A DNA stretch of 31,286 bases from a virus. The position numbers and the translations under genes were made by a program. The stretch is from positions 1-31,286 of IMG/VR virus record IMGVR_UViG_3300023174_000463; one strand, 5' to 3'. Below are positions 21,546 to 22,803 of the stretch, one piece after another. How positions within the stretch are numbered: the first letter of the stretch is position 1; every line of letters starts with the position of its first letter. The notes beneath the pieces are model-generated. The model ran no database searches and had not been told where the DNA came from. It saw nothing but the letters and a program-made list of their open reading frames with translations.

Positions 21546-21574
21546 ATTATATCAACAAGACAAATAAAAGTAAA
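21546..21574 (-). promoter_or_regulatory. Sigma70-like promoter
   Basis: Minus strand: TTTACT, 17 bp spacer, TATAAT. It ends 25 bp before the ATG at 21520. The -35 box overlaps the 3' arm of the gp32 terminator. Confidence 0.7.
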
Positions 21575-21604
21575 TAGGCCAGAACAAAAAATTCTGGCCT
21601 ATTT
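21572..21604 (-). terminator. Terminator after gp32
   Basis: A perfect 13-bp stem (AAATAGGCCAGAA with TTCTGGCCTATTT, 7-base loop) lies 15 bp after the gp32 stop. The minus-strand 3' side continues with a T-rich stretch. It is the strongest terminator in the window and should end gp32 transcripts; it is symmetric enough to work on both strands. Confidence 0.85.
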
Positions 21605-21619
21605 TGATTAAACTAAAAC

Positions 21620-22543
21620 TTAGTCTTCGGTCAAAGACTGGAAGTATGAAAGTACATCATCATCGTCTGAATCAGTAACTTCTACAACCTTAGATGGCTT
21701 ACTAGCAACCTTTACTAGTGGCTTAGCTGCAGGTTGAGGTGCTTCCATAACTGGGCGATCCTCTTGCTCTGCAATTTCTTCTGCTGTCATACCAATAAAT
21801 TCGCCAGATAGAACCATATCAAGCTTCTTCTTTAGTTCATCATATGACTTAAAGTTCTTAGCATCAAGAAACTCTGATAGCTTATGCTGCTTATTAGCAA
21901 CTTCTAGAATTTCTTCATCATCATTTAGTATAACACTTGGTTCTGCAAATGTTGATTGATCATAGTTAGGATAACCTTCAACTGTCTTCATACGAAGCTT
22001 GAAGTTAGCACCTTCCCAATAATCAAAGACATTTACTGGTTCTTCATCTTCAAAAGTTGGACGTGCCTTATCCATAATCTTATCAAAAATCTTCTTACCA
22101 TACTTAAACAAGAATACTTGACCTTCATTCTCAGGATGCTTAGGATCAGATACAACTAGGATATTTGAGATATAATGAAGGCGGCGCTTTTGCTTACGTG
22201 CAAGATCCTTATTTGCCTCAGAACCTGAGTTCCAAAGCTTGGAATTTAGTTCACCAACTGGGTCATTTTGACCAAGAGTAGTAAGTGAGTTTTCAATATA
22301 CCACTTTCCGCTTGGGCCTTGAAAGCCATGCGAAAAGATCTTTACCCATGGAAGCTCATCGCCTTCAGTTCGAGGGAGGAATCGGATTGTGGCTTGGGCA
22401 TTACCAGCCTTATCACGTTCTGGCTTCCAGAAGCGGGTATCTTCGTATGATTGTGTTTGTTGTGGATTTGCAGTCTTTTCAAATTCTTGAGCGATCTTTG
22501 AAAAGTCAGAATTGCGCATCTTGCGTAGTGAATTGATATCCAT
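21620..22543 (-). CDS. 32: Single-stranded DNA binding protein gp32
   Basis: Start placed at ATG 22543 (MDINSLRKMRNSDF) because AAGGAA lies 5 bases before it; the longer frame begins at a TTG inside the leader. The 307-residue protein (T4: 301) has the N-terminal basic LRKMR region for cooperative binding, the core with FWKPERDKAGNAQATIRFLPR, a KRRLHYISNILVVSDPKHPENEG block and KYGKKIFDKI, and an acidic tail with DSDDDD near the end that in T4 contacts gp59 and other replication proteins. It contains no cysteine, so the T4-type His-Cys3 zinc site is absent. gp32 covers ssDNA in replication, recombination and repair, and in T4 represses its own translation. Confidence 0.95.
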   Translation of the reverse strand: MDINSLRKMRNSDFSKIAQEFEKTANPQQTQSYEDTRFWKPERDKAGNAQATIRFLPRTEGDELPWVKIFSHGFQGPSGKWYIENSLTTLGQNDPVGELNSKLWNSGSEANKDLARKQKRRLHYISNILVVSDPKHPENEGQVFLFKYGKKIFDKIMDKARPTFEDEEPVNVFDYWEGANFKLRMKTVEGYPNYDQSTFAEPSVILNDDEEILEVANKQHKLSEFLDAKNFKSYDELKKKLDMVLSGEFIGMTAEEIAEQEDRPVMEAPQPAAKPLVKVASKPSKVVEVTDSDDDDVLSYFQSLTED

Positions 22544-22608
22544 ATTAGTTCCTTGTATAAGCGTAGTATTAACGTAGTATTGCGATGTATAAGAGGTTTC
22601 CCTCAACT
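22544..22608 (-). promoter_or_regulatory. gp32 leader with GNRA hairpin and direct repeats
   Basis: The 65-base gp32 leader (minus strand) contains a perfect 4-bp hairpin with a GNRA loop, GAGG-GAAA-CCTC (22593-22604), then two copies of AATACTACG 11 bases apart and two copies of CTTATAC flanking them, just before the AAGGAA ribosome site. T4 gp32 binds such a leader (pseudoknot plus unstructured repeats) to shut off its own translation. An autogenous operator is inferred. Confidence 0.45.
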
Positions 22609-22803
22609 TTATTTATCATCTTCATGAAGAAATATATCATTAGCTAGTTCATCAAAATCATCTTCAGTCCAATCGTCATAAACATTAATGATAGGAATAC
22701 CATTACTTCGACGATTATTGGAATGTTGAGAGTGTTTACCACCTCGACTTGACTGAACTTCATCATCAAACTTACGACTTTGTTTACGATATGTATTACC
22801 CAT
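22609..22803 (-). CDS. Small acidic unknown protein upstream of gp32
   Basis: A 64-residue protein with a basic, polar N-terminal half (NTYRKQSRKFDDEV, SSRGGKHSQHSNNRRS) and a strongly acidic C-terminal half (DDWTEDDFDELANDIFLHEDD). No family or motif is recognised. It overlaps the end of gp59 by 8 bp and is followed directly by the gp32 leader, so it is co-transcribed with the gp59/gp32 replication genes. Similar short polar ORFs are common at this spot in T4-like phages, though their role is not known to me. Confidence 0.65.
   Translation of the reverse strand: MGNTYRKQSRKFDDEVQSSRGGKHSQHSNNRRSNGIPIINVYDDWTEDDFDELANDIFLHEDDK

Follow-up and report, generated by a model that had tools for sequence, protein, structure and literature searches.

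The gp32 gene and its leader

The stretch of DNA analyzed here, referred to as the window, is 31,286 nt long and comes from a record of a T4-like myophage. Its minus strand carries the gene for gp32, a single-stranded DNA (ssDNA)-binding protein (Table 1). The translated protein matched PF08804 in Pfam (E 8.7e-43) and the PDB entries 2atq, 2a1k, 8gme and 1gpc at E 1.6e-42 or better, and the solved T4 and RB69 gp32 structures are homologues of it. Identity to the gp32 of HTVC008M was 54% (alignment A3; 52.9% by tblastn). Identity to T4 gp32 was 36%, and the zinc-finger cysteines of the T4 protein are missing from the window protein. A gp59-like gene and an ORF of 64 aa stand ahead of gp32, and a Pfam search with this ORF gave zero matches. 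Past gp32 lies an intrinsic-terminator-like hairpin; an excerpt of PMC1524935 reports terminators predicted downstream of gene 32 in five of six T4-like genomes.

Table 1. Features of the gp32 region of the window
Feature	Position	Strand	Remarks
Intrinsic-terminator-like hairpin	21572..21604	(-)	directly past gp32; 1 found vs 0.7 expected
gp32 (ssDNA-binding protein)	21620..22543	(-)	307 aa, ATG at 22543; translation, Pfam and PDB matches
gp32 leader	22544..22608	(-)	hairpin and four phased units
Shine-Dalgarno-like AAGGA	22550..22554	(-)	sequence
Unit 4, TATACAAGG	22551..22559	(-)	fused with Shine-Dalgarno
Unit 3, AATACTACG	22562..22570	(-)	sequence/pattern match
Unit 2, AATACTACG	22573..22581	(-)	sequence/pattern match
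Unit 1, TATACATCG	22583..22591	(-)	sequence/pattern match
CTTATAC, two copies	22593-22587, 22561-22555	(-)	sequence
5' hairpin GAGG-GAAA-CCTC	22593..22604	(-)	GAGG 22604-22601, GAAA 22600-22597, CCTC 22596-22593
64-aa ORF	22609..22803	(-)	upstream of leader; TAA stop overlaps GATAAATA
Late-promoter-like GATAAATA	22610..22617	(-)	one mismatch to TATAAATA

The initial annotation had described a GNRA hairpin, GAGG-GAAA-CCTC, with doubled CTTATAC and doubled AATACTACG before the ribosome site, and all of these were found on the minus strand. Its repeat count was correct for the two copies of AATACTACG and too low in total, since TATACATCG and TATACAAGG are further units, which makes four in all. 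The steps along the array were 10, 11 and 11 nt, and the unit consensus at the RNA level was [A/U]AUAC[U/A][U/A]CG. With an array defined as at least three NAT[AC]C-type cores, spaced by about 9-11 nt, within -60 to -1 of gp32, the window has one of four cores. When the 66-nt leader was shuffled 20,000 times, four WATAC words appeared together only once. A GNRA hairpin of 4 bp with at least three G-C pairs occurred in 0.04% of 5,000 leader shuffles, and any 4-bp GC-rich hairpin with a loop of 3-8 nt in 4.1%. The motif ATACNNCG was only mildly unusual across the whole window (10 vs 5.1 expected). The striking part was its clustering: the pattern WATACNNCG-gap-WATACNNSG matched the window three times (overlapping), all inside the leader. 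When 14 records were searched with this pattern, only one match (G005) was obtained beyond the window, because the linkers differ among phages, and core-based counts were used instead.

The folding of the leader was also analyzed. Prediction was limited to nested folds and gave a simple hairpin; the leader as a whole folded no better than shuffles (z -0.29). The last 45 nt were predicted to be 84% unpaired, largely an effect of composition. The window and 10 loci gave zero matches in Rfam, and UUAAA was absent from 22544-22608.

The repeat array in related phages

Four scans gave 320 gp32 loci (80 each), to which the window's own copy and 12 annotated phage regions were added. Matches were obtained for 332 of the 333 loci; 314 had a leader of at least 60 nt, 278 of those were unique, and dereplication at 75% over the last 45 nt left 168 leaders. 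By best-matching query they were grouped as window-like (W, 34), HTVC008M-like (H, 58), P-SSM4-like (M4, 27) and P-SSM2-like (M2, 49). The gp32 starts were picked by homology and Shine-Dalgarno sequence, and the motif was not used. As a control, 1,688 leaders of other ORFs were taken from nine genomes with a simple ORF finder and were not dereplicated.

Exact 5-mers recurred in the 168 leaders 8.1 times more often than in shuffles at a distance of 9 nt (z 23), 7.6 times at 10 nt (z 23) and 3.3 times at 11 nt. Recurrence was 3.3-5.1x at 18-20 nt (5.1x at 18 nt, 4.1x at 19 nt), 3.0x at 28 nt and 4.0x at 32 nt. The same was seen group by group: 9.4x, 5.3x and 5.1x at 9, 10 and 11 nt in W leaders, 3.2-5.0x at 8-11 nt in H leaders, 12.9x at 9 nt and 1.7x at 11 nt in M4 leaders, and 15.9x at 9 nt and 14.0x at 10 nt in M2 leaders. 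The 1,688 control leaders showed no phasing, with 0.4-2.1x at every distance. The usual distance between neighbouring cores was 9-11 nt in W, 8-11 nt in H and 9-10 nt in M4 and M2.

The array was confined to the region just before the gene, with 3.02 cores per 60 nt at -60 to -1 vs 0.17, 0.35, 0.32 and 0.55 in the four surrounding 60-nt bins. At least three WATAC words were present in 72 of 168 gp32 leaders (3 of 49 in the group using AATCC), vs 3 of 1,688 controls. Conservation in relatives had been set beforehand as the refuting test of the operator proposal, and the repeats came through it strongly, the array preceding gp32 in different lineages and being nearly absent from the leaders of other genes. 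In many W leaders the array extends into the 3' end of the preceding ORF. Among the W-clade loci L001-L011 and their kin, the codons in this overlap must serve both the ORF and the array.

The core in W, H and M4 leaders was AATAC, with an A-rich pair and often a G after it; in M2 leaders it was AATCC[A/G]A. Of 115 leaders with at least three NAT[AC]C units, 82 were pure A, 12 were pure C and 21 were mixed, whereas 68.5 mixed leaders (minimum 59) were expected with units dealt at random, in a comparison from which shared descent was not removed. On a gp32 tree (FastTree, with weak deep support), the A/C core state changed five times over the 153 labelled of 168 rows. These data showed that the whole array tends to switch core together, as expected if a single binding partner reads every copy. 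Among the gp32 residues listed, none was tied to the AATAC/AATCC switch, for which there were three supported independent pairs.

Specificity for gp32 was then ranked within each of the nine genomes, using a profile trained on other groups only. The gp32 leader came first among gene leaders in six of the nine, the window included: controls at or above gp32 numbered 0/40 in the window, 0/227 in P-SSM4, 0/239 in P-SSM2, 0/165 in the L003 record, 0/229 in the L040 record and 0/236 in the L028 record. The rank was weak in HTVC008M (1/175), Melnitz-3 (4/185) and the L038 record (10/192). Maximum 5-mer multiplicity, tried as an unbiased score, was too weak and failed to set gp32 apart in the majority of the nine genomes. 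It was clear only in P-SSM4 (0/227 at or above) and P-SSM2 (2/239); the values were 8/40 in the window, 10/175 in HTVC008M, 17/185 in Melnitz-3 and 8/236 in the L028 record, and the score failed in the L003 (115/165), L038 (126/192) and L040 (56/229) records. As a separate observation, the L003, L038 and L040 records each have TAACTGTAACTG / GCAACTGTAACTG repeats directly ahead of a called gene, which is 1155, 504 and 1149 nt long, respectively.

The 5' hairpin and the predicted transcript start

The T4 late promoter consensus is TATAAATA, which has a set spacing to +1. The late-promoter-like site of the window is by itself within chance frequency in this AT-rich DNA; TATAAATA or GATAAATA was found in the same position in L029, L033, L038 and L051. 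If 22610-22617 is a late promoter, the T4 spacing predicts +1 at 22604, the first base of the hairpin. P-SSM2-like leaders were inspected by eye, and a sigma-70-like promoter was seen in front and no hairpin was noticed: TTGACT-17-TATAAT precedes the AATCC array in L092, and TATAAT stands just before the array in its P-SSM2-like kin (e.g. L088 and L115). This promoter position suggests a leader made of almost nothing but repeats.

In L051, L038, L029 and L033, which belong to the window's own clade, ATAAATAAA was followed within a few bases by a stem where the window has GAGG/CCTC. These stems (GAGTA/TACTC, GAGCA/TGCTC and GGATA/TATCC) differ by compensatory changes. The H and M4 leaders have a different hairpin, with a 9-10-nt loop of the GAUUAUACA type. 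A single alignment for both hairpin types (A1) gave three registers rather than one countable structure and was replaced by loop-anchored counting. In A2 alone, percent paired, cells changed on both sides and the covariation score exceeded all 500 shuffles; pairs changed on both sides (2 vs 1.8) and further pair types (7 vs 7.0) did not beat the shuffles.

For the loop-anchored count, hairpins in TAAATA-led H and M4 leaders were found by the loop alone, which gave 34 of 58 H and 22 of 28 M4 leaders; the count excludes the remaining 30 of 86, which lack the loop motif. The four flanking pairs were fully complementary in 32/34 H and 22/22 M4 leaders (54/56 together), and re-dealing the 3' arms gave 10.3 such hairpins of 56 on average and 20 at most. 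The loop-anchored hairpins comprised 13 distinct stems; at pairs 2, 3 and 4 alike, each of the four Watson-Crick combinations occurred. Complementarity so far above that of re-dealt arms showed that the hairpin in H and M4 gp32 leaders is under RNA-level selection.

The conservation that the initial annotation asked of the hairpin was found in part. It held in L051, L038, L029 and L033 and, as a different covarying hairpin, in HTVC008M-like and P-SSM4-like leaders, but the corresponding hairpin was absent from the closest relative, L047 (95% identity over gp32 residues 1-201). L047 retains five repeat-like units (counted by eye), so the repeats are the constant part and the hairpin is optional or clade-specific. 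By eye, an element of about ATTATG-N5/6-GTGGA[TC]AAG was also seen to be conserved in L437, L439, L430, L230, L232, L458 and L242, between the promoter-like site and the repeats, in the usual place of the hairpin.

The hairpin may have nothing to do with the repeats and act solely as a 5' element that stabilises late mRNAs, an explanation that is compatible with a gp32 operator and has, in our estimate, slightly less than an even chance of being right. Its loss from L047, where the array persists, agrees with this, as do strong hairpins after TATAAATA at a few other genes, whereas the conserved GAUUAUACA-type loop of the relatives goes beyond what stability requires. Among 85 TATAAATA-led genes in nine genomes, the share of strong hairpins was somewhat over shuffles in some genomes and at or below them in others, so such hairpins may still have a generic role. 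Strong hairpins immediately past TATAAATA at other genes were seen in the L028, L038 and HTVC008M records, one of them with a GAAA tetraloop.

A candidate autogenous operator and its relation to known gp32 operators

We interpret the leader as a probable autogenous translational operator of gp32, at a probability of roughly 0.7, judging from sequence comparison. The mRNA before the start codon would stay single-stranded and present three to five core copies every 9-11 nt, the last of which holds the Shine-Dalgarno sequence. When free gp32 exceeds the available ssDNA, cooperative binding of protomers to the array would occlude the ribosome site and stop translation; when ssDNA appears, gp32 would depart and translation resume. 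In the window and several relatives, the late-promoter-like site would start the transcript at or a few nt from the small hairpin, which might either nucleate binding to the array or protect the mRNA. We infer gp32 as the ligand and repression as the outcome because cooperative gp32 binding is the simplest reading of an array that has the same place and layout as in T4 and RB69, is unpaired in the predicted fold and hardly occurs outside gp32 leaders.

Several points stand against the operator reading. Excerpts of PMC10484735 and PMC7826291 give T4 gp32 a site size of 7 nt on ssDNA; because the 9-11-nt pitch is longer than this, the occupancy of each unit by one protomer is conjectural. The protein is held to be sequence-independent on ssDNA (excerpt of PMC535899), and the max-5-mer score was weak. 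The weak profile rank in three genomes, the largely compositional origin of the open structure and the lack, among the gp32 residues listed, of one that follows the core switch also count against it.

Other explanations of the array were also considered. Instead of a repressor site, it could be a translation enhancer or standby site, unstructured and A-rich, bound by ribosomal protein S1 or the 30S subunit for high gp32 output. We regard this as unlikely: the array does adjoin the Shine-Dalgarno sequence, and gp32 leaders were less paired than controls (unpaired fraction 0.81-0.89 vs 0.61 in 400 control leaders sampled from the 1,688), but a generic enhancer needs neither a 9-11-nt phase nor a lineage-specific core that is uniform within a leader, and it would be expected before other genes, yet at least three WATAC words occur in just 3 of 1,688. 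The openness itself was largely an effect of composition, with structure z values against shuffles of -0.11 to 0.72 as group means and -0.28 in controls. Less probable again is that the repeats bind another regulator, either a different phage RNA-binding protein (for instance a homologue of RegA) or a transcription factor bound to one face of the DNA helix. The 10-11-nt step of the window is close to one DNA turn, but the P-SSM4-like group favours 9 nt, off helical phase, the array passes through the Shine-Dalgarno sequence, and the neighbouring hairpin covaries as RNA in relatives. RegA is a general repressor, and a general regulator should mark many genes. Neutral tandem duplication, by which AT-rich phage DNA easily gains short repeats, is very improbable, since the core is conserved while the linkers differ, the steps vary from 9 to 11 nt, and the array survives gp32 identities of about 50% and is confined to -60 to -1.

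The autogenous operator would have a precedent in T4 and RB69, where gp32 represses the mRNA that encodes it, acting through a folded element on the 5' side and a tract of unstructured repeats over the ribosome site (excerpts of PMC535899 and PMC3014915). The likeness to the T4 layout drawn in the initial annotation was apt. Like the T4 operator, the window leader lies immediately upstream of gp32 and overlaps the ribosome site, and, as in T4 and RB69, an unstructured repeat tract separates the folded element from the start codon. However, where the T4 operator has a pseudoknot and UUAAA repeats, the window leader combines a GNRA hairpin of 4 bp with AUAC(N)(N)CG units at steps of 10-11 nt. 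The RB69 operator has diverged and is still bound by gp32, so that the leader changes while control persists (excerpt of PMC535899); it keeps a pseudoknot and UUAA(A), and no phased AUAC array is described for it.

Leaders closer to the window share more with it. HTVC008M-like and P-SSM4-like leaders have phased AATAC running into the Shine-Dalgarno sequence, a late-promoter-like site and a 5' hairpin; unlike the window, the unit step is 8-11 nt in the former and mostly 9 nt in the latter. P-SSM2-like leaders have a phased array up to the start codon, as in the window, with AATCC as the core instead. Leaders obtained with a T4 query (80 loci, 77 leaders read) were also analyzed. Sixteen dereplicated leaders, from loci whose gp32 is 58-99% identical to that of T4, showed 5-mer recurrence of 9.6x at 5 nt and 13.0x at 10 nt, and 7 of the 16 had at least two [AC]CTGT words, 9-13 nt apart save one step of 19 nt, whereas T4 itself uses UUAAA. 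In 22 further leaders (36-45% identity), recurrence was 8.8x at 9 nt and 5.3x at 10 nt, and AATAC cores were visible. These periodicities indicate a pitch of about 10 nt common to leaders of differing sequence.

A tentative extension, which we hold more doubtful than not, is that T4-like gp32 reads RNA sequence: one protomer would sit on each lineage-specific core at a protomer pitch of about 10 nt, and this register would locate its own mRNA, the core (AUAC, AUCC, ACUGU or UUAAA) shifting with lineage and the pitch being kept across the T4 superfamily. If so, an SSB that textbooks treat as sequence-independent would recognise its own message through a phased register written in the sequence. 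An excerpt of PMC3014915 calls for work in diverse T4-related phages, and a repeat code in many lineages makes phase, core and copy number directly testable for gp32 binding and repression.

The UUAAA repeats of T4 and the divergence of RB69 are already known. For phased AUAC/AUCC arrays before gp32, no report was found among the open-licence PMC papers searched. Both marine and freshwater T4-like phages carry this layout, and its occurrence in pelagiphages, methylophages and cyanophages would imply that autocontrol of gp32 is general in the T4 superfamily. Because its layout fits but the UUAAA definition fails, the window leader was classed, on its sequence features, as a variant of the T4/RB69-type operator, with a similar layout and a different sequence and hairpin.
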